NCBI GenBank assembly: GCA_022071945.1
Contig: JAJVIN010000039.1
Span: 1 to 64,000, forward strand
DNA: 64,000 nucleotides
Origin: Thermoanaerobaculia bacterium
Lineage (GTDB): Bacteria; Acidobacteriota; Thermoanaerobaculia; UBA5066
Direction of reading: 5' to 3'
Positions within the stretch are counted from its first letter, which is position 1. Each line of letters starts with the position of its first letter. Below are positions 3,860-33,785 of the stretch, piece after piece. The notes beneath the pieces are model-generated. The model did not search any database. It was not told the origin of the DNA and worked only from the letters and a program-made list of their open reading frames with translations. The position numbers and the translations under genes were made by a program.

Positions 3860-4963
3860 ATGAGCCAGAAGCACCCCCTCCCCGACAAGCTCGATCCCCG
3901 TGTCCCCATTGCCGTCATCGGCGCCACCGGCGCGGTCGGACAGCGCATGGTCTCGCTCCTGGCGGGCCACCCGTGGTTTCGCATCGCGGAGGTCGCCGCC
4001 TCCGAGAGGTCCCAGGGCAAGAAGTACTCGGACGCGACCCGCTGGATCCTGCCGGGCGACATTCCCGAGGACGCCCGCGATCTGACCGTCGTCTCCGTCG
4101 AGGAAGAGCTCTCATCCCCCATCGTCCTCTCCGCCGTCGACGCCTCCGTTGCCGATGAGATCGAGCCCCTTCACGCCTCTCGCGGGAAGTTCGTCGTCTC
4201 CAACACGAAGTCGTTTCGGATGAAGGCAGATGTCCCCCTTCTCGTTCCGGAGGTCAACTCGGACCACCTCGCCCTCGTCGAGCGGCAGTCCTGGCGGAAG
4301 GAAAAGGGCGGGGCGATCATCACCAATCCGAACTGCGTCGTCGTGGGCCTCGCCATGGGTCTCGCTCCCCTCCACCGGGCGTTCGGCCTGGAAGCAGTCA
4401 CCGTCGTGACTCTGCAGGCCCTCTCCGGCGCGGGATACCCGGGTGTCCCGTCGCTGGATGCGCAAGGGAACGTCATCCCCTTCATCGACGGCGAGGAAGA
4501 GAAGATCGAGCGCGAGCCCGGGAAAATCCTCGGGCTCCTCACCGAGGACGGGGTCATCCCGGCCGACTTCAAGATCTCCGTTGCCGTCAACCGCGTCCCG
4601 GTCCGGGACGGCCACACCGAGTCGGTCTTCGTCAAGCTCAAGAGGAAGGCGTCCCTGGCCGAGATCAAGGAAGCCCTGGAGGGCTTCACGGGAGAGCCGC
4701 AGGCTCTCGGCCTGCCATTCGCTCCGGCCCAGCCGATCGTCGTCAGGGGTGAAAACAACCGTCCTCAACCCGTTCGGGATGTCGAGACCGGCCACGGGAT
4801 GGTCGTCACGATCGGGCGCCTCAGACCGGACCCGGTCTACGATGTCCGCTTCACCTTGCTCGTTCACAACACCGTTCGCGGCGCGGCGGGTGCCGCTCTG
4901 CTAAACGCCGAACTCTTGCTCGCCCGAGGCCTCGTCCCGGTTGCCCCCGTCTCGGCGGCCTAG
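3860..4963 (+). CDS. asd: aspartate-semialdehyde dehydrogenase
   Basis: VPIAVIGATGAVGQRMVSLL, ITNPNCVV, VTLQALSGAGYPG; ATG at 3860 in the 3623-4963 ORF; followed by lysC/dapB/dapA. Confidence 0.93.
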   Translation: MSQKHPLPDKLDPRVPIAVIGATGAVGQRMVSLLAGHPWFRIAEVAASERSQGKKYSDATRWILPGDIPEDARDLTVVSVEEELSSPIVLSAVDASVADEIEPLHASRGKFVVSNTKSFRMKADVPLLVPEVNSDHLALVERQSWRKEKGGAIITNPNCVVVGLAMGLAPLHRAFGLEAVTVVTLQALSGAGYPGVPSLDAQGNVIPFIDGEEEKIEREPGKILGLLTEDGVIPADFKISVAVNRVPVRDGHTESVFVKLKRKASLAEIKEALEGFTGEPQALGLPFAPAQPIVVRGENNRPQPVRDVETGHGMVVTIGRLRPDPVYDVRFTLLVHNTVRGAAGAALLNAELLLARGLVPVAPVSAA

Positions 4964-4973
4964 AGGGTCCAGC

Positions 4974-6335
4974 ATGATCGTCGTCAAGTTCGGCGGTACG
5001 TCGATGGGATCCGGCGAGCGGATCGCCTCCGTCGCCCGCCTCGTCGAATCCCGTGCCGCCGAGACGCCCCTCGTGGTCGTCTCGGCCATGGCAGGGATCA
5101 CCGATTGCCTCCTCGCCCTCTCCTCCGCGGCGCAGAAGTCCGACCGGGCGGCGGCCGACAAGGCCCTTTCGCAGTTCGCCGAAAAGCACCGCCAGGCCGT
5201 CGAGGCTCTGGGCCTTTCTGGAGAAGACGCCGAGGCGTGCAGCGACGAGATCACCCGCGAGACTGTCCGCCTGGCGGACCTCTCGACGGGAGTTTCGCTC
5301 CTCGGGGAGCTCTCGCTGCGCACGACCGACGCGATCGCGGCATCCGGCGAACTCCTCTCGAGCCTCCTGATGACGGCCGCCCTCAGGAAGATCGGCGTCG
5401 ATGCCGTGCGCATCGATCCGAGGGAGTGGATGGCGACCGACGCGCAGTACGGATGTGCCATCCCCGACGAGTCCCGGGTTTCGTCCCTCGTCGCGATGCG
5501 GGTGATGCCCGAGGTGAAGGCCGGCAAAGTCGTCGTGACCGGGGGATTCGTCGGAGCGGCGCCGGACGGATCCTTCACGACTCTCGGACGGGGCGGCTCG
5601 GACTACTCCGCCGCGCTTCTGGGGGGAGGCCTTCACGACTGCGGCGCACGGGTGGATGCCATCGAGATATGGACGGACGTCGACGGCATCCTCACGGCCG
5701 ACCCGCGCATCGTGACGGGCGCGCGGCTGGTGCCCGAGGTCAGCTACACGGAGGCGGCGGAGCTCGCTTTTTTTGGCGCCAAGGTTCTGCACCCCGCGAC
5801 CATCAAGCCGGCCGTCTCGCGCGAGATCCTCGTGAAGGTCAAGAACACCTTCCGTCCCCAGGCTCCCGGGACATCCATCGCACGGACCGCCGAGGGCGAA
5901 GGAGTCCGGGCGCTGGCCATGCGAAAGGGCGTCGCGGCGGTCTTCATCACGAGCCCCCGCATGCTGCTCGCCTACGGTTTCGCGGCCCGGGTTTTCTCGG
6001 TCTTCGAGAAGCTCAAGGTCTCCGTCGACGTCATCGCGACGAGCGAGGTGTCGATCTCGGTCACGTTCGACGAGAAGAGCCCGATTGACGACATCGTTTC
6101 CGAGCTGGCGCAGTTTTCCGATGTCGAGACGATGACGGGGCTCGCGGTGGTCTCCGTCGTCGGGCAGAATCTCCGATCAACTTCCGGAATTGCCTCCAGG
6201 ATTTTCACCGCGCTCGATGCCATCAACGTCGTCTTGATCTCACAGGGCGCCTCGGAGACGAACCTGACGTTCGTCGTCGAGGCCGAGAACGGAGCCGAGG
6301 CCCTGCGGCGGCTCCACAAGGAGTTCTTCGGATGA
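4974..6335 (+). CDS. lysC: aspartate kinase
   Basis: MIVVKFGGTSMGSGERI, TLGRGGSDYSAALLG, C-terminal ACT domains; start at 4974. Confidence 0.95.
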   Translation: MIVVKFGGTSMGSGERIASVARLVESRAAETPLVVVSAMAGITDCLLALSSAAQKSDRAAADKALSQFAEKHRQAVEALGLSGEDAEACSDEITRETVRLADLSTGVSLLGELSLRTTDAIAASGELLSSLLMTAALRKIGVDAVRIDPREWMATDAQYGCAIPDESRVSSLVAMRVMPEVKAGKVVVTGGFVGAAPDGSFTTLGRGGSDYSAALLGGGLHDCGARVDAIEIWTDVDGILTADPRIVTGARLVPEVSYTEAAELAFFGAKVLHPATIKPAVSREILVKVKNTFRPQAPGTSIARTAEGEGVRALAMRKGVAAVFITSPRMLLAYGFAARVFSVFEKLKVSVDVIATSEVSISVTFDEKSPIDDIVSELAQFSDVETMTGLAVVSVVGQNLRSTSGIASRIFTALDAINVVLISQGASETNLTFVVEAENGAEALRRLHKEFFG

Positions 6336-7021
6336 AGGCCCTCATCGTTGGTTACGGAAGGATGGGACGCGCCATCGAGTCCCACCTGATCCAGCGTGGA
6401 CACACCGTTGCCGGTCGCGTCGACATCGATTCCCCGATCTCCGACCAGCTCGCGGGCTCGGTCGACGTCGCCATCGAGTTCACGATCCCGGAGGCGGCGC
6501 CGAAGAGGATCGAGAACCTCCTCGAGAGGGGAGTGCCGGTCGTTTCCGGAACCACCGGCTTCGACGTCGCGCCGCTGCGGGCCCTCGCGGATCACCGCGG
6601 CGTTGCCTTTCTCCACTCGGCGAACTACTCGATCGGGATCGCCGCGATGAAGAGGGCCGTGATGGTCTTGGCCGGAGTCCTGGAGTCCTTCTCCGAGTTC
6701 GAACCCGGCATCTTCGAAAGGCACCACTCCCTCAAGCTCGACAGCCCGTCGGGGACCGCCAAGCTTCTGGCGGCGGCCGTCGAGGCGGCCCGGACCCTGA
6801 AAGGTCCCGAGGTGCCCATCGCGGCCCTGCGCCAGGGAGGGCAACCGGGAGAGCACACGGTCTACTTCGAGGGACCCGAGGAAGTCGTTGCCATCACGCA
6901 CCAGGCCCGGTCCCGCGCGATCTTCGCGCAGGGGGCGGTCCGGGCGGCAGAGTGGATGATCAAGTCGGGCCGAACGGGGTCCCTCACGTTCGACGACTTC
7001 TTCGAAAGGCGAGGTGCCTGA
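6332..7021 (+). CDS. dapB: 4-hydroxy-tetrahydrodipicolinate reductase
   Basis: VGYGRMGRAIES, HHSLKLDSPSGTAKLLA; 4-bp overlap with lysC. Confidence 0.93.
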   Translation: MKALIVGYGRMGRAIESHLIQRGHTVAGRVDIDSPISDQLAGSVDVAIEFTIPEAAPKRIENLLERGVPVVSGTTGFDVAPLRALADHRGVAFLHSANYSIGIAAMKRAVMVLAGVLESFSEFEPGIFERHHSLKLDSPSGTAKLLAAAVEAARTLKGPEVPIAALRQGGQPGEHTVYFEGPEEVVAITHQARSRAIFAQGAVRAAEWMIKSGRTGSLTFDDFFERRGA

Positions 7022-7953
7022 TGCCCCAGGCCGTGACTTTTTCCGGCGTGTACACAGCTCTCGTGACTCCCTTCACGAGCTCGGGCGATCTGGACGAGGC
7101 GGCCCTTCGAGCAATGGTGAAACGTCAGATCGCGGGCGGGGTCGCGGGTCTCGTCCCGTGCGGAACGACGGGAGAATCCGCCACTCTCGATCCCGAGGAG
7201 CACGTCAGGGTCGTCGAGATCGCGGTCGCGGAGAGCCGCGCGGCGTCGCGTAGAGTCACGGTGATCGCGGGTTGCGGCTCCAACGACACCCGCAAGTCTC
7301 AAAAGCTCGCGGCGCTCGTGAAGAAGGCGGGCGCGGACGCGCTCCTCGCGGTCACGCCGTACTACAACAAGCCGACCCCCGCCGGGCTGAAGGCGCATTT
7401 CACCGCCGTCGCGGATGCGGGCGAGCTCCCCGTCATCCTCTACAACGTCCCGGGCCGGACGGGCGTGAACATGATGCCCGAGACGGTTCTCGACCTGGCA
7501 AAGGATCCCCGGATCGCGGGCGTCAAGGAAGCATCGGGCAACCTGGACCAGGCGTGCGAGATCCTGCGGGGACGCCCGGAAGGGTTCGCCGTTCTCTCGG
7601 GCGAGGATTCGCTCGCGCTCCCGATGGTGGCGTGCGGAGCCGAGGGCGTCATCGCCGTCATCTCCAATGAAGCTCCGCGAACCTATTCGGCCCTCATCGC
7701 TGCCGCCCTCTCGGGCGAGAGGACGAAGGCCGCGGCGCTGCAGAAGAAGCTCTTCCCGCTCATGAAGGCGAACTTCCGCGAATCGAACCCCCTGCCCGTG
7801 AAGTGGGCGATGGCCCGCCTGGGGCTCTGCGGCGGGGCGCATCGCCTCCCGCTCGTCCCCCTGTCGGCGTCACACCACGCGGCGGTCGAGAGCGCCCTTC
7901 TGGCGGCCGGGCTTCTGGACGAGAAGGGACAGGTCACCGAGGAGGCCGCGTGA
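7021..7953 (+). CDS. dapA: 4-hydroxy-tetrahydrodipicolinate synthase
   Basis: GVYTALVTPF, VPCGTTGESATL, YNVPGRTGVNM, GVKEASG; ATG at 7021 in 6952-7953 ORF. Confidence 0.95.
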   Translation: MPQAVTFSGVYTALVTPFTSSGDLDEAALRAMVKRQIAGGVAGLVPCGTTGESATLDPEEHVRVVEIAVAESRAASRRVTVIAGCGSNDTRKSQKLAALVKKAGADALLAVTPYYNKPTPAGLKAHFTAVADAGELPVILYNVPGRTGVNMMPETVLDLAKDPRIAGVKEASGNLDQACEILRGRPEGFAVLSGEDSLALPMVACGAEGVIAVISNEAPRTYSALIAAALSGERTKAAALQKKLFPLMKANFRESNPLPVKWAMARLGLCGGAHRLPLVPLSASHHAAVESALLAAGLLDEKGQVTEEAA

Positions 7954-8723
7954 ACCGCGAGGAGGTCCTCGAACTCCTGGCCTCCCTGGAAAAGGGAGAG
8001 CGGCGAGCCGCGCTGCAGGGCCCGGATGGTGCCTGGCACGCGGACGCGGAAGTCAAGGAAGGAATCCTCTTCGCGTTCCGCCTCGGTGTGGAGGTGGAGT
8101 CTGAGGCCGGTCCCTTCTGGTTCCGGGACCGGGATACCGTGCCGCCGCGCCGGGACTTCGGCCCCGGTGTCCGGATCGTTCCGGGCGGGTCGACCGTCAG
8201 GCGCGGGGCTTACCTCGGCAAGGGCGTCGTGATGATGCCTCCGTCGTACGTGAACGTCGGCGCCCATGTCGACGACGGAACCATGATCGATAGCCACGCC
8301 CTGGTCGGGTCCTGCGCCCAGATCGGAAAGCGCGTTCACCTCTCGGCCGCCGCCCAGATCGGGGGCGTCCTCGAGCCCGCGAACGCCCGCCCCGTCATCA
8401 TCGAGGACGAGGTTTTCGTTGGAGGCGGGGTGGGCGTCTACGAGGGCGTGCTCGTCAGAAAGCGCGCGGTCCTGGCAAGTGGAGTGATCCTCACGGGCTC
8501 CACGGTGATCTTTGACCTCGTCAACGAGACGGAGATCCGGGGCCGGGAGGGAGAACCTCTCGCCGTTCCCGAGGGAGCCGTCGTCGTTCCGGGTTCGCGC
8601 AAGGCGCCGGGAGATTTCGCGGCGAGAAACGGCATCGCGCTCGCGACCCCCGTCATCGTGAAGTACCGCGACGCCCGGACGGACAGCAAGACGGCCCTCG
8701 AGTGGACCCTGAGGCGAAGCTGA
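7950..8723 (+). CDS. dapD: 2,3,4,5-tetrahydropyridine-2,6-dicarboxylate N-succinyltransferase
   Basis: Hexapeptide-repeat acyltransferase, MPPSYVNVGAHVDDGTMIDSHALVGSCAQIGKRVHLSAAAQIGGVLEP; GTG at 7950 overlaps dapA stop. Confidence 0.92.
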   Translation: MNREEVLELLASLEKGERRAALQGPDGAWHADAEVKEGILFAFRLGVEVESEAGPFWFRDRDTVPPRRDFGPGVRIVPGGSTVRRGAYLGKGVVMMPPSYVNVGAHVDDGTMIDSHALVGSCAQIGKRVHLSAAAQIGGVLEPANARPVIIEDEVFVGGGVGVYEGVLVRKRAVLASGVILTGSTVIFDLVNETEIRGREGEPLAVPEGAVVVPGSRKAPGDFAARNGIALATPVIVKYRDARTDSKTALEWTLRRS

Positions 8724-9970
8724 TGGCCCTGACAGAGTCGATCGTGAAAGAGGCCGCCGAACGCTTCGGCACGCCCCTTTACCTCTACGATTTCGATGCC
8801 CTCGAAGAGAGAGTCGAGGCCCTTCAGGCCGCGGCGGGGCCCAGGTTCACGCTCGCCTATGCGGTCAAGGCGAACCCCTCGCTGGCCGTTCTCTCATTCC
8901 TCGAGGGCCGGGGTCTCTCCGCGGACGTGGCCTCGGCGGGTGAGCTCGAGGCGGCGCGCAGGGCCGGCTTTCCTCCCCACAAACTCGTCTCCACCGGTCC
9001 TTCCAAGTGCGACCGGGATCTCGAGGCTCTGGTGCGAGAAGGCATCCTGCAGATCCACGTGGAGGGCTCGGACGAACTCCAGGTCCTCGACTCGATCGCG
9101 GCGAGGGAGAAGAAGATCGTCACGGCCGGTCTGCGGATCAACCCGCCCTGGGGGATCGCCGAGAAGAGAACGATCATCGGCGGTCCCGGCGCGAAGAAGT
9201 TCGGTTTCGACCTCGAGTCCGCGGCTCTCGAACTCGAGAGCCGGGATGAGCTCGGCCACGTCGTCATCGAGGGATTCCAGGTTTTCAACGCCTCCAACGT
9301 CCTCGATGCCGGTCTCCTGTCGGAAAACGCCGAGCACGTCGTCGAGCTGGCGGCGGAACTGTCAGAGCGCTTCGACGTTTTCGTGGCAACGATCGACTTC
9401 GGGGGCGGTCTCGGCGTTCCTTACTCGGACGACGAGTCTCCCCTCGACCTCGCGGCCCTCTCGGCCGGTCTTGCCCGCGTTGCCCGTAGAGTCGCGAGCC
9501 ACGCGCGGCTGGCGGAGGCCCGCCTCATCTTCGAGCCCGGGAGATTTCTCGTCGCGCCCGTGGGCCTCTACGTCACCAAGGTCCTCGGAACCAAGAGGTG
9601 CATGGGGATGAACTACGCCCTCGTGGACGGAGGCATCCACCACATGGTCCGGCCGGTGCTCCTCGGAACACCGCATCGCGCCCGGGTCGTGGGAGATCCC
9701 GGCCGCGAGCGTGTGCCCGTCGGGATCGCCGGCCCGCTCTGCACGAGCCTCGACGTGCTGCATCCGGAGACGCTCTTGCCCGAGCCGAGGCGCGGAGACC
9801 TCATCGCCTTCGAGAACGCCGGCGCTTACGGCTACACGGAGTCGATGCCCCTCTTTCTCTCCCACGAGTGGGCGGCGGAGGTGGGGTACAGACAGGGCAG
9901 GCTCGAATCCCTCAGGCGCCCGCCGAGGGTTTCCGAGATCCTCGACGCTCAGCGGATGCCGTTCGACTAG
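8723..9970 (+). CDS. lysA: LysA-like fold-type III PLP-dependent decarboxylase (diaminopimelate decarboxylase by context; non-canonical specificity motif)
   Basis: AYAVKANP PLP-lysine motif, FDFGGGLGVPY, EPGRFLVAPVG, GPLCTSLDVL; last gene of dap operon; alternative start 8702. Confidence 0.75.
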   Translation: MALTESIVKEAAERFGTPLYLYDFDALEERVEALQAAAGPRFTLAYAVKANPSLAVLSFLEGRGLSADVASAGELEAARRAGFPPHKLVSTGPSKCDRDLEALVREGILQIHVEGSDELQVLDSIAAREKKIVTAGLRINPPWGIAEKRTIIGGPGAKKFGFDLESAALELESRDELGHVVIEGFQVFNASNVLDAGLLSENAEHVVELAAELSERFDVFVATIDFGGGLGVPYSDDESPLDLAALSAGLARVARRVASHARLAEARLIFEPGRFLVAPVGLYVTKVLGTKRCMGMNYALVDGGIHHMVRPVLLGTPHRARVVGDPGRERVPVGIAGPLCTSLDVLHPETLLPEPRRGDLIAFENAGAYGYTESMPLFLSHEWAAEVGYRQGRLESLRRPPRVSEILDAQRMPFD

Positions 9971-29093: not shown

Positions 29094-32000
29094 CTAGGCC
29101 CCCTTGCTTCCCCGCAGTCTCTCGAGAGCAATCAGCCTCTGGATGGCGTCGAGGGTCAGCTCGTCTTTCCCGAGCTCCCTCAAGCGCGACCACTCCCGGC
29201 GCAGCTCGAGGGCCAGCGGGAGGGCGAGTGTCCGGAGCCACCCCTCGATCCGCAGGTCGACGAACTCCCGCTTCTCCTCGAGCGTCAACTCGCGCGCGAG
29301 AAGGAGGCGAGAGGCGTCCTCGGCGTCGACGAGGGTCTGCAGGAAAGGCCAGCGGTCGCCCGGCTTCTCGGCGCACAGAGCCGCGAACGAGACGCTCGAC
29401 GTCTCGCGGATGAGTTCTTCCTCTCGAGTCGTCTGACTCTCGTGTTCCTTCGTTTCGTCCCAGCTCTCCGAGTCTTCCGCCAGGTACCGGAGGTACTCCA
29501 TCGCAAAGAGGCACGTCGGAGATACGAGCTCCTCTCGAATCCGGGCGTCGATCCACAGGGCCGCGGCGGCCCTCTGGCACCTCCGTGAGGCAGTTTCGGC
29601 GAGTTTCCGTCCGAAGACGAGTCCGGCGGCCTCCTTGACGAAGAGGGGAAGCTCGCTCGCGACGATCTCGCGGTAGCCGGGGACGTGCCTGTCGAGGAGG
29701 ACGGCCGCCCGCCGGTCCAGGACTCCGAGGTCGCTCGTGACGGCGGGTAGGCCCAGCGTCGTGCAGGCGAGGTTGAAAACGATGGCTCTCGGGAGTGTCA
29801 CGCCCTCGGGCCAGGCATCGCGCAGGTCGCGGTTGTCGGGAAGCGTCTTGCCGCCGCCCCACTCCTCGGGGTATGCGGGGATCGACCGTCCATAGTTGGC
29901 GGATCCCGTCGCCCGGATCCTCACGCGCGTCTGGGGGACCAGGCTTCCGAAGGGCGCGATCAGCGGGGCGATCTTCAGGAGCATCTCGGTGTGGGCCTTC
30001 ACGCCCGCTTCCAGGAGCCTCGCGAGGGCTTCTGCATCGGGGGGTGGAACGGTCGGGCCGTGTTCTCCCAGGCCCGCGCGCCTGGCGGTTTCGGCCCGGA
30101 AGGCCGCCGCGAGGCGCAGGGTCTCCTCGGGGGAGTCGGCACGGATGCCCTGTACCGTGACGCCGTCCGCTCTGGCGAACTGGGAAACGACGCCCGGGTG
30201 CGCCGGATCGAAGCCGCCGCGGAACCCGGCCCGGCCGGCTCCGATCAGAAAGGTGACCTTCGGCGGCGGCTCGGAGACTCGCGCGGCCCGAATTGCCAGC
30301 CGCCGTTCGGCTTCTTCCCGGCCTGCCAGGGCGAGCGTGCAGGCGACATCGGTCGCGATCTTGCCGCTCTGCTCAGCGGTGTCGGACATCGCGACGAAGA
30401 CGCGGATCACGGCCTCGGTTCCCGAAAACGCTGTCCGAAAGATGCCGGGACCGGGCAGGTCTTCCACTCCCACCCCTCGTTCGAGAGCCACGTAGAAGGC
30501 CTCCAGGAGGTCGGGGAGGTGCGAGAGCGCTCCGACGTTCTCGCACAGAGGGACGAGACGGACTCGAGAGGCCTTTGCAAGGAGCTCCTGGCGCCTCGCC
30601 TTCGGAATTCGCTTGGCCAGGAACGCATCGACGCGATCGGGCGGGCCCTCGAGGAGGTTCTTGACGGCCGCGAGGTAGAGCGTGCCGATCTTCACGACGG
30701 CGCCGATCTCGGCCGAGGAGTTCACCTGGGGCACGCTAATCTCATAGATCGCGTTCTGCTTCGGTGCAATCCCGGCCTTCTCGCAGGCGAGGTGGAAGAG
30801 CAGATTCGCGCGGGCGACCGAGGCCAGGATCTTCGAGACCTTCTCTTCGTCTTGCTCGATGAAGGGATTCGGAACCCGGAAGAGAAGGTGCCTGTCCTCG
30901 CCAGGGACGATCCCGTGACGCATCAGCGCCAGGACGACTCTCTCCGGCACATCCAGCCAGTCCGGGCTGATCTGCCGCCCCTCCAGGTCGAGCAGGACCT
31001 CGCTGCACGGCCCCAGGAGGTCCGCGATCGACTCCAGGAACTCATCTCGCGCCTCCATGAGCGGGTGCCATTCGAGGTGAGTGAGAGCAAGGCGGGAACG
31101 GTCCAAGGCTCCCTCGGGCGCGGCGGCCAGCGCCCGGGCCAGCTGTTCGGCCCGGTGGGCGGTCGAGTCGGGATGCTTGGTGGCCGTGAGTCTCAGAGAT
31201 TCGTGTCTGGGGTTCTCGAGAAACCGCTTTCTCTTGGCTGTGAAGGACTTTCGGTCGAGTCCGTCCAGCGCCTCGTATCCCGTGGCCGTGCAGACGCTCT
31301 CCCAGACGGCATCCTCATCGGACTGGGCCGTCGAAGGGACGGGCGCTTTCGCGCTTGCACCGAGTCGCTGCTGGCGCTCGATGCACGTCCGGACCCTGTC
31401 CATGAAGACAGCCAACTCCTTGACGTCCTTCGACCCGTAGGAGAGGCGCTGCCACGTGCCGTACTGGGCGGCGTTGCCCGGCCCGCCCGCGAAGGCCACG
31501 AACGGGATCCCGCCGACGCCGCCCGACAGCAGGAGCTCGAAGGCATCCACCGAGTCCTTGACGACGGCACGCTCGTGTATTCCGTTGCGAAGGCGGTCGA
31601 ACGGTTCCCCGACGAGACCGGGGAAGGCGAGCGGGGAGTAGAAGGTCCCGCCGAAATCCGTCCGCTCGACGCCGAGATGCCGAATCTCATCGGCGGCCCG
31701 CAGCATGAAATCGCGGCGCTCGCGCATGTACGGGGACGGCCTCCGGAGACCGGCGAGCGGACTCTGCAGCGCGGCCAGAGCCCAGTCCTGAGCGAGCGTC
31801 GAGGGTGTGGCGACAAGCCAGGCCGAGAGGTTCGCCAGGATCTCGCGGGCCCGCACGCCGTTCGTCTTGATCTGATCCGAGATGACGAGCCAGCAGGCGC
31901 GAGCCCCGGTCGAGGCCCCGAACATGTCCATTTTCGAGAGGCCCGAGAGCGACACGACCCAGTCGCGCCATTCCGGGCGCGCGAAGGCCGGATTGACGAA

Positions 32001-32699
32001 CCACCCGGCGTAGTCGAGCCGCTGGTAGACGGAGTCGTAAAGAACGTACGCCCGGTGCCGGACCGCCACGGCGACGAGCTCTTCGACGAGGGCCCGCGGG
32101 TACACGCGTCCCGTGGGGTTGTGCGGGTTGTTGAGGATGACGGACGAAACGCCCCCCCTGGCGAGGAGCTTCTCCAGGGCCGCCGGGTCGGGGAGGAAGT
32201 CCGGTGCCGAGGTCGGCAGCTCGATGATGTGCTTGCCGGCGCGCTCGATGAACCAGTCGTATTCCCAGCTCGGCCTCGGAACGACCACTCCCGAGCCGTC
32301 CTGGCCGAGGACCTCGAGGACAAAAGCCAGTCCCGCACGGGTTCCCGGCGTGAAGAGCACCTCATCCGGAAGGAACCGGACCTCCGAATCCGGATAGTCG
32401 AGGAGACCGTCCCTGTTGAAGAACTCCGCGACCTCGCTCCTGACGTCCATCCGGCCGACAGCCGGGCCGTAGCTGTGAACGGTGTTCCTCGTGATGCGCT
32501 GGGCGGCCCTGACGACCTCGGGGTGCGGGGCGAAGTCGGCGTTCTTGTAGTCGCCCTGCGTCAGGTCGAGGGCTCCCTCCTGCTGGACGCGTCTCGCAAA
32601 GAAGCGGACGAAGGGCTCTGGTGTGGAGAGGGCAGAGGCAGAGAGACCAGCAACAGAAGGCGAGCGGCGCGGCGTTTTCAGAGGTCGAGGACCGGTCAT
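29094..32699 (-). CDS. fusion protein: class I/II PLP aminotransferase (N-term) + archaeal-type phosphoenolpyruvate-carboxylase-like region (C-term)
   Basis: Single ORF (1216 aa from GTG 32744; ATG at 32699). AT: NNPHNPTG, VLYDSVYQRLDY, SLSGLSKM, WQRLSYG. PEPC-like: TKHPDS, LFRVPNPFIEQDEEK, IYEISVPQVNSSAE, FVAMSDTAEQSG, IGAGRAGFRGGFDPAHP, TLPRAIVFNLACTTLGLP. Confidence 0.8.
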   Translation of the reverse strand: MTGPRPLKTPRRSPSVAGLSASALSTPEPFVRFFARRVQQEGALDLTQGDYKNADFAPHPEVVRAAQRITRNTVHSYGPAVGRMDVRSEVAEFFNRDGLLDYPDSEVRFLPDEVLFTPGTRAGLAFVLEVLGQDGSGVVVPRPSWEYDWFIERAGKHIIELPTSAPDFLPDPAALEKLLARGGVSSVILNNPHNPTGRVYPRALVEELVAVAVRHRAYVLYDSVYQRLDYAGWFVNPAFARPEWRDWVVSLSGLSKMDMFGASTGARACWLVISDQIKTNGVRAREILANLSAWLVATPSTLAQDWALAALQSPLAGLRRPSPYMRERRDFMLRAADEIRHLGVERTDFGGTFYSPLAFPGLVGEPFDRLRNGIHERAVVKDSVDAFELLLSGGVGGIPFVAFAGGPGNAAQYGTWQRLSYGSKDVKELAVFMDRVRTCIERQQRLGASAKAPVPSTAQSDEDAVWESVCTATGYEALDGLDRKSFTAKRKRFLENPRHESLRLTATKHPDSTAHRAEQLARALAAAPEGALDRSRLALTHLEWHPLMEARDEFLESIADLLGPCSEVLLDLEGRQISPDWLDVPERVVLALMRHGIVPGEDRHLLFRVPNPFIEQDEEKVSKILASVARANLLFHLACEKAGIAPKQNAIYEISVPQVNSSAEIGAVVKIGTLYLAAVKNLLEGPPDRVDAFLAKRIPKARRQELLAKASRVRLVPLCENVGALSHLPDLLEAFYVALERGVGVEDLPGPGIFRTAFSGTEAVIRVFVAMSDTAEQSGKIATDVACTLALAGREEAERRLAIRAARVSEPPPKVTFLIGAGRAGFRGGFDPAHPGVVSQFARADGVTVQGIRADSPEETLRLAAAFRAETARRAGLGEHGPTVPPPDAEALARLLEAGVKAHTEMLLKIAPLIAPFGSLVPQTRVRIRATGSANYGRSIPAYPEEWGGGKTLPDNRDLRDAWPEGVTLPRAIVFNLACTTLGLPAVTSDLGVLDRRAAVLLDRHVPGYREIVASELPLFVKEAAGLVFGRKLAETASRRCQRAAAALWIDARIREELVSPTCLFAMEYLRYLAEDSESWDETKEHESQTTREEELIRETSSVSFAALCAEKPGDRWPFLQTLVDAEDASRLLLARELTLEEKREFVDLRIEGWLRTLALPLALELRREWSRLRELGKDELTLDAIQRLIALERLRGSKGA

Positions 32700-32782
32700 C
32701 AAGCCGGCGATTCTCGCACGCCGGCAAGAGAACGAAAGGACCACTTTCCGAGAAGGGCGAGCTGCTTCTCCCGCCGCCCCGC

Positions 32783-32807
32783 GGGAGGAGGCGGCGAGCC
32801 TCCTCCC
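32783..32807 (-). terminator. strong hairpin downstream of coiled-coil lipoprotein gene (no T-tract)
   Basis: GGGAGGAGGC / GCCTCCTCCC perfect 10-bp stem, 5-nt loop; overlaps alternative stem CTCCCGC/GCGGGAG (32768-32774/32781-32787). Confidence 0.45.
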
Positions 32808-32822
32808 TTCGCGGAATTCAGA

Positions 32823-33785
32823 TCAGTCCGGAATCATGACGACGAGGTACTTGCTGCCCTGCCAGAACTTCGCCGTGTCGGTCACTTTCAAGACCGTGCC
32901 TCCCTCGGGCGTGGGTACGAGCTCGTAGCTGTCCCTGGGGTGGTCCGAGAGCACCTTGAGCTTCTTGATCGCAGTGCCGATGGAGAACTCGGTCTCGGTC
33001 CGGATGTCGATCTCCCTAAAGAGTTCCGGATCGAACTTCCCGGTGCGGAGCCAGCTCCCTCCCAGACCGAGGACGTCGCCCTTCTTCTCGATCAGGCCCT
33101 TCTCACGCAGCGTGGCCTTCTTGGCGACCGTGACGTAGGCCTTGTTGATTTCCTTGGTCTGCGTGTCGATGACGCCTTCTTTTTCCTTGATGACGCCCGC
33201 TTGCTCCTCGACGGTCTGGGTCAGATTCAAGACCTTCACCTCGAGTTCGGCGATGAGCTTGCTCTTTTCCTCGAGCGAAGCGCGAAGGACCTCGGTCAGA
33301 CGCTCCATCGAGGTCACCTTGCCTTCGAGCTCGAGGTTCTTCTTGCCGGCTTCCTCGGCCTTGGCGATCGCCGCCTTGCGCTCCTTCTCGAGCTTGGCGA
33401 GCTTCTCGAGGTTGGACTTCACCGCCGCGCGAATCGTCGCGATCTCGGCCTTCAGCTGATCACGGCGGCTGCTCTGCGGCTGACCCTCTTGCATGATCTC
33501 GAGCGAGCTCTTGATGATCGCGAGTTCCTTGCCCCTGAGGTCCTCGAGGCTCTTCTGGACGTCGTCCAGGGTCGCCTGCATCTCGGCGGTCTCGATACCA
33601 GCCGTGGCGACCTGGGTCTCGAGCTGCTTCTTTTCCTCGGTCAGCTTGGCCTTTTCGGTCTTCAGCTGCTCGGCCTCTTTCTTGTAGCAAGCGGGCGCGG
33701 CGATGATGACGAAGAGGGCCAGAAAGGCCGCTGAGAAACGGAACCGGCTGCTTCCGATCCGGGTTTGCGTGTCGTGTGCGTTCAT
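32823..33785 (-). CDS. coiled-coil protein with N-terminal signal/lipobox-like segment
   Basis: FSAAFLALFVIIAAPACYKKEAEQLKTEKAKLTEEKKQLE; long Glu/Lys-rich heptad region. Confidence 0.7.
   Translation of the reverse strand: MNAHDTQTRIGSSRFRFSAAFLALFVIIAAPACYKKEAEQLKTEKAKLTEEKKQLETQVATAGIETAEMQATLDDVQKSLEDLRGKELAIIKSSLEIMQEGQPQSSRRDQLKAEIATIRAAVKSNLEKLAKLEKERKAAIAKAEEAGKKNLELEGKVTSMERLTEVLRASLEEKSKLIAELEVKVLNLTQTVEEQAGVIKEKEGVIDTQTKEINKAYVTVAKKATLREKGLIEKKGDVLGLGGSWLRTGKFDPELFREIDIRTETEFSIGTAIKKLKVLSDHPRDSYELVPTPEGGTVLKVTDTAKFWQGSKYLVVMIPD

Follow-up and report, generated by a model that had tools for sequence, protein, structure and literature searches.

A conserved single-chain fusion of a class I/II aminotransferase and an archaeal-type phosphoenolpyruvate carboxylase-like domain found sporadically in several bacterial phyla

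Introduction

Phosphoenolpyruvate (PEP) carboxylase (PEPC) supplies carbon anaplerotically to the aspartate family of amino acids, and inhibition of the enzyme by aspartate is common. Besides the classical enzymes of bacteria and plants there is an archaeal type, described in the portions considered here of a review of the PEP-pyruvate-oxaloacetate node as a small stand-alone subunit of 55-60 kDa (PMC8100219). The same portions describe a fusion of malic enzyme with a phosphotransacetylase domain that is inactive and has a regulatory role (PMC8100219). They contain no mention of a fusion between an aminotransferase and a PEPC, and neither do the portions considered of a paper on the evolution of the PEPC family (PMC3521007). 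No description of such a protein was found in the open-access literature searched, most subscription journals lying outside this scope.

Here we analyze a gene of this architecture from a Thermoanaerobaculia bacterium, located in a stretch of 64,000 nucleotides (contig JAJVIN010000039.1, positions 1 to 64,000), hereafter the window.

Results

One open reading frame encodes both domains

The gene consists of a single open frame in which both an aminotransferase and a PEPC-like domain are recognized:

29094..32744, minus strand: fusion ORF, 1216 codons, uninterrupted, GTG at 32744
31680..32570, minus strand: aminotransferase class I/II half, Pfam match, residues 59-355 (PF00155, E 7e-32)
31305..31397, minus strand: variable inter-domain linker, about residues 450-480 (gapped, variable alignment columns)
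29613..31058, minus strand: archaeal-type PEPC-like half, Pfam match, residues 563-1044 (PF14010, E 1.3e-31)

The first in-frame ATG lies at 32699 (residue 16), and the block conserved among fusion relatives begins in the alignment only near residue 33, so that ATG 32699 is the likelier of the two and the probable start of the gene. The first-pass annotation had read the locus as a one-chain fusion of these two domains and had staked this reading on similarity to PF14010. Both expected families exceed their curated cut-offs by a wide margin, PF00155 with 111 bits (cut-off 19.7) and PF14010 with 110 bits (gathering cut-off 25), and all the motifs that it had quoted are present in the ORF.

Conservation and distribution of the fusion

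The first-pass annotation had also proposed a search for the same domain order in related genomes. A genome scan recovered the same fusion product at 27 loci, and 21 other genomes encode it at full length in a single frame, with 67-82% identity to the copy in the window. These 21 copies and that of the window form the comparison set used throughout (n=22). PF00155 and PF14010 match every member, the latter at E 1e-5 or better, and the linker occupies the same position in all of them. Two further copies (L034 and L040) are apparently frameshifted, and one genome (G001, contig C229) carries a second, fragmented copy beside an intact one.

The possibility that an assembly chimera, a frameshift or a MAG artefact joined two neighbouring genes, which would have undone the first-pass reading, is hardly credible. 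The sequences do come from assembled, mostly metagenomic genomes, and broken copies such as those just mentioned exist, but the frame is uninterrupted in the 21 other genomes at the identity and with the linker position given above. Since the single-frame fusion recurs in this way, and is kept in many independent assemblies, assembly error, frameshift and chance are excluded as its origin.

Selection was gauged by codon-position differences among the fusion copies. In both halves third positions differ most, first positions less and second positions least; in copy L018, for example, the third-position difference is 0.39 against 0.11 and 0.06 at first and second positions in the aminotransferase half, and 0.49 against 0.19 and 0.12 in the PEPC half. 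Given this large excess at third positions, both halves are under purifying selection, and by this measure each is selected as protein.

In the family to which the window's genome belongs the fusion is common (11 of 14 genomes with a full or partial match); elsewhere it is rare, and sporadic over several bacterial phyla. It occurs in 5 of 396 Acidobacteriota sampled in an even draw and in 3 of the 195 genomes of a Myxococcota set, while the sole fusion in a draw of 400 Chloroflexota was a copy already known. Submitter labels of fusion-bearing genomes include Acidobacteriota, Myxococcales, Bradymonadales, Deltaproteobacteria, Gammaproteobacteria, Chloroflexi and Riflebacteria; these records are metagenome bins, and single phylum labels may be wrong. 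In a tree of the fusions, the rows labelled Myxococcota cluster together, as do those labelled Pseudomonadota, each with high support. Searches with PF14010 in Acidobacteriota, Myxococcota and Chloroflexota yielded canonical archaeal-type PEPCs, weak matches resembling classical PEPC (L081 being read as a classical PEPC) or the fusion itself; in these searches neither half of the fusion type was found standing alone.

The carboxylase half has diverged from canonical archaeal-type PEPC

The predicted model of the C-terminal half (mean pLDDT 79) retrieved the archaeal-type PEPC 3ODM as top Foldseek match (E 1.4e-13, TMt 0.66), in agreement with the fold anticipated for this half. The first 50 PDB hits were all PEPCs, and a viral structure library, serving as negative control, gave no match below E 0.01. 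Identity to canonical acidobacterial archaeal-type PEPC is 27-28%, with a profile alignment (hhalign) of probability 99.6 and E 1e-24. Two such canonical stand-alone genes were found in a different acidobacterial family (L045:1501-2958 and L046:389-1846), scoring 612-615 bits to PF14010. The fusion scores 107.4 bits against the TIGR02751 equivalog cut-off of 146.05 and thus falls short of it, which marks the C-terminal half, as judged by profile scores, as a diverged sister rather than a plain archaeal-type PEPC. The principal features of this half are the following, with residue roles taken from alignment and general knowledge:

31164..31181, minus strand: TKHPDS with catalytic His524, counterpart of STQHPDN; invariant in the 22 fusions and aligned with MSTQHPDN of L045/L046
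30540..30542, minus strand: Glu735 in PLxEN, counterpart of the metal-binding Glu (PLFE) in fusion/archaeal/classical profile alignments; invariant
30375..30392, minus strand: AMSDTA, with metal-binding Asp788 kept and Met in every fusion at the position of the ARSD arginine
30213..30242, minus strand: GAGRAGFRGG loop, in which Arg842 (FRG) aligns with the bicarbonate/phosphate Arg of PEPC
29796..29882, minus strand: fusion-specific insertion, residues 955-983 (P-x-YPEEW...RDLRDAWPEGV), directly preceding LPRAI
29781..29795, minus strand: LPRAI motif with Arg986, kept in all PEPC types
29097..29609, minus strand: C-terminal extension (SWDETKEHES...), approximately residues 1046-1216, helical in the model

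The catalytic His, the metal-binding Glu and Asp and the arginines of FRG and LPRAI are invariant in 22/22 fusions. Of seven canonical sequences scanned, six have the arginine of ARSD, as does 3ODM, and the seventh (L101) gave no match to the pattern; in all 22 fusions the residue is methionine. The first-pass annotation had considered AMSDTA altered, which holds for the Arg-to-Met change before the serine; the threonine is ordinary, as the Clostridium perfringens enzyme (3ODM) itself has ARSDTA. A second arginine, Arg838, is new and invariant in the GxGx(3)FRG loop of the fusions, where canonical enzymes have the Ser/Gly of GxGS. Since both changes are fixed throughout the comparison set and fall within the two loops bearing the metal-binding Asp and the arginine of FRG, it is a reasonable hypothesis that a phosphate-binding arginine was swapped between the ARSD and FRG loops. 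The insertion before LPRAI is largely invariant in the 22 fusions and missing from the aligned canonical enzymes, and the C-terminal extension exceeds theirs in length.

The missed equivalog cut-off and the loss of one canonical arginine bear out an earlier caution that this half may have diverged. The main rival to a bifunctional enzyme is that the PEPC-like half lost PEP carboxylase activity or gained another, acting for example on another substrate as a C-C bond lyase or carboxylase, or sensing aspartate or oxaloacetate, with the aminotransferase as the only classical activity. The methionine in ARSD, the TIGR02751 score, the conserved insertion adjoining an active-site motif, the long C-terminal extension and the coexistence of a classical PEPC in the window's genome would all fit it. 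Nonetheless we regard it as somewhat unlikely, since a non-catalytic sensor would have no need of the five invariant active-site residues, and the new arginine in the FRG loop is consistent with compensation.

The aminotransferase half resembles aspartate aminotransferases

The best sequence matches of the N-terminal half in the PDB are Thermus aspartate aminotransferase (AspAT), and fold comparison leads to aspartate and prephenate aminotransferases. Its closest full-domain paralogues in the genomes searched share about 30-33% identity with it. Three residues are of particular relevance:

31932..31934, minus strand: Lys271 in SGLSK, PLP-binding; aligns with K234 of Thermus AspAT, present in 22/22
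32337..32339, minus strand: invariant Arg136, aligned with the GGKQAL lysine of Thermus AspAT (K101 of 1bjw)
31446..31448, minus strand: Arg433 in WQRLSYG, invariant; candidate alpha-carboxylate-binding arginine

Also, the Asp and Tyr of the PLP site, both invariant, and the Arg following the PLP Lys align with those of Thermus AspAT, so that the half combines the PF00155 match with the complete set of PLP Lys, Asp and Tyr and a carboxylate Arg, the alpha-carboxylate role of Arg433 being presumed from knowledge of the family. The deposited mutant 1b5o has Ser in place of the GGKQAL lysine, which we take to be Lys109 of the literature numbering, the residue that recognizes the distal carboxylate of aspartate. 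The fusion thus keeps a basic residue at this position, Arg replacing Lys, and the invariance of this Arg favours, on alignment grounds, a dicarboxylic substrate for the N-terminal half.

Profile models are less specific. None of the NCBIfam AspAT equivalog cut-offs is reached by this half (78 against 550 bits for NF041091), and the models for alanine aminotransferase PRK08363 and GntC outscore those for AspAT. These scores would suit an enzyme in which both halves are active on other terms, the aminotransferase using a pair different from aspartate/oxaloacetate (for example alanine/pyruvate, a substrate of the aromatic or prephenate type, or a different product derived from oxaloacetate), so that the product is not simply aspartate. 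We consider this quite unlikely, given that GntC is the best match also for unrelated aminotransferases of the window's genome, that the top matches among solved structures are AspAT, and that the invariant Arg at the distal-carboxylate position fits a dicarboxylic substrate.

Genomic setting and alternative enzymes

The fusion gene is convergent with uvrB. Upstream of it lies a gene for a 320-residue protein without Pfam match (window 32826-33785), which by eye is coiled-coil-like and hydrophobic in a stretch at its N-terminus. Between the upstream stop and the fusion start, at 32783-32807, lies a perfect 10-bp inverted repeat (GGGAGGAGGC/GCCTCCTCCC) without a T run. At 4941-9967 of the window, some 20 kb from the fusion, ORFs resembling by eye aspartokinase, DapB, DapA and LysA, the lysine genes to which the first-pass annotation had referred, have no visible link to it.

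No conserved partner gene was found among the compared fusion loci. Flanking ORFs recur in at most three of them, and the clusters common to at least four neighbourhoods all lie within the fusion gene, in its true or shadow frames. An operon or partner-gene clue to function was accordingly dropped and, with no flanking gene common to more than three loci, the fusion appears to be a self-contained unit.

Classical PEPC is missing from nine of ten fusion-bearing genomes tested, the exception being that of the window (G000:C10:75981-78596, PF00311, 743 bits), and the PYC/OADA domain of pyruvate carboxylase was found in none of the ten. Among the 26 fusion-bearing genomes reached via the loci, 17 are without classical PEPC. 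Many fusion-less relatives also lack both PEPC and pyruvate carboxylase, so that the missing alternatives lend weak support, and the argument that the fusion serves as sole PEPC is further weakened by the classical enzyme in the window's genome.

With respect to transamination, no other aminotransferase among the 13 PF00155 loci of the window's genome passes an AspAT equivalog cut-off, and in a search directed at the Ib type no AspAT-like hit with the lysine was found there. The argument that the fusion is the sole AspAT is valid for this genome only; most of the other fusion genomes tested have a Lys-type AspAT gene.

Discussion

Proposed function

A route from PEP to aspartate, as proposed in the first-pass annotation, fits the catalytic residues that have been kept and the basic residue found where dicarboxylates are recognized, and the fusion is probably a bifunctional enzyme that would form aspartate from PEP, bicarbonate and glutamate. 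The PEPC activity, the specificity for aspartate and the direction of the reaction are inferred. The C-terminal half is predicted to convert phosphoenolpyruvate and bicarbonate to oxaloacetate, and the N-terminal PLP half would then convert oxaloacetate to aspartate, with glutamate as the most likely amino donor. By linking both steps, unstable oxaloacetate would be drawn into aspartate and carbon committed to amino-acid synthesis. The complete proposal, namely a natural aspartate synthase in one chain (PEP + bicarbonate + glutamate -> aspartate + phosphate + 2-oxoglutarate), handing oxaloacetate from one site to the other and having the ARSD arginine replaced by that of the GAGRAGFRG loop, is put forward tentatively. 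Channelling of oxaloacetate between the halves, taken by itself, is rather doubtful; in the full-length model (mean pLDDT 65.8) the placement of the halves relative to each other is unreliable.

A conserved fusion of PEPC and aminotransferase would tie carbon fixation directly to aspartate formation, providing a natural and testable example. In addition, it points to a branch of archaeal-type PEPC, as yet uncharacterised, whose active site is altered and which is sporadic in several bacterial phyla.

Comparison with known systems

With archaeal-type PEPC (PF14010, TIGR02751; 3ODM) the fusion shares the fold, the order of motifs and the catalytic His, Glu, Asp and Arg. It differs in having Met for the Arg of ARSD and GAGR for GxGS, the insertion before LPRAI, a longer C-terminus and the fused aminotransferase; in place of a small stand-alone subunit, its PEPC is half of a 1216-residue chain. 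Classical bacterial and plant PEPC (PF00311) belongs to the same superfamily, and its metal-binding Glu and Asp and its FRG/GRGG arginine align with those of the fusion. Profile similarity is weak, however, and the fusion is without the His/Arg of HGRGG and the Lys of SDSxKD, in this respect resembling the archaeal type.

The N-terminal half shares its fold and PLP-site residues with the class I (1-beta) enzymes, Thermus thermophilus AspAT (1BJW) and Arabidopsis prephenate aminotransferase (5WMH), to which it is about 21-24% identical by structural alignment. They and the fusion have in common a basic residue at the distal-carboxylate position, which in the fusion is Arg in place of Lys. The fusion departs from both in an insertion of three residues following the PLP Lys (SKMDMFGASTGAR) and in the fused PEPC. 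Finally, the fusion of malic enzyme with phosphotransacetylase offers a precedent at the PEP-pyruvate-oxaloacetate node, but its domains are unrelated to those described here and, in contrast to that protein with its inactive second domain, the present fusion has invariant catalytic residues in both halves.
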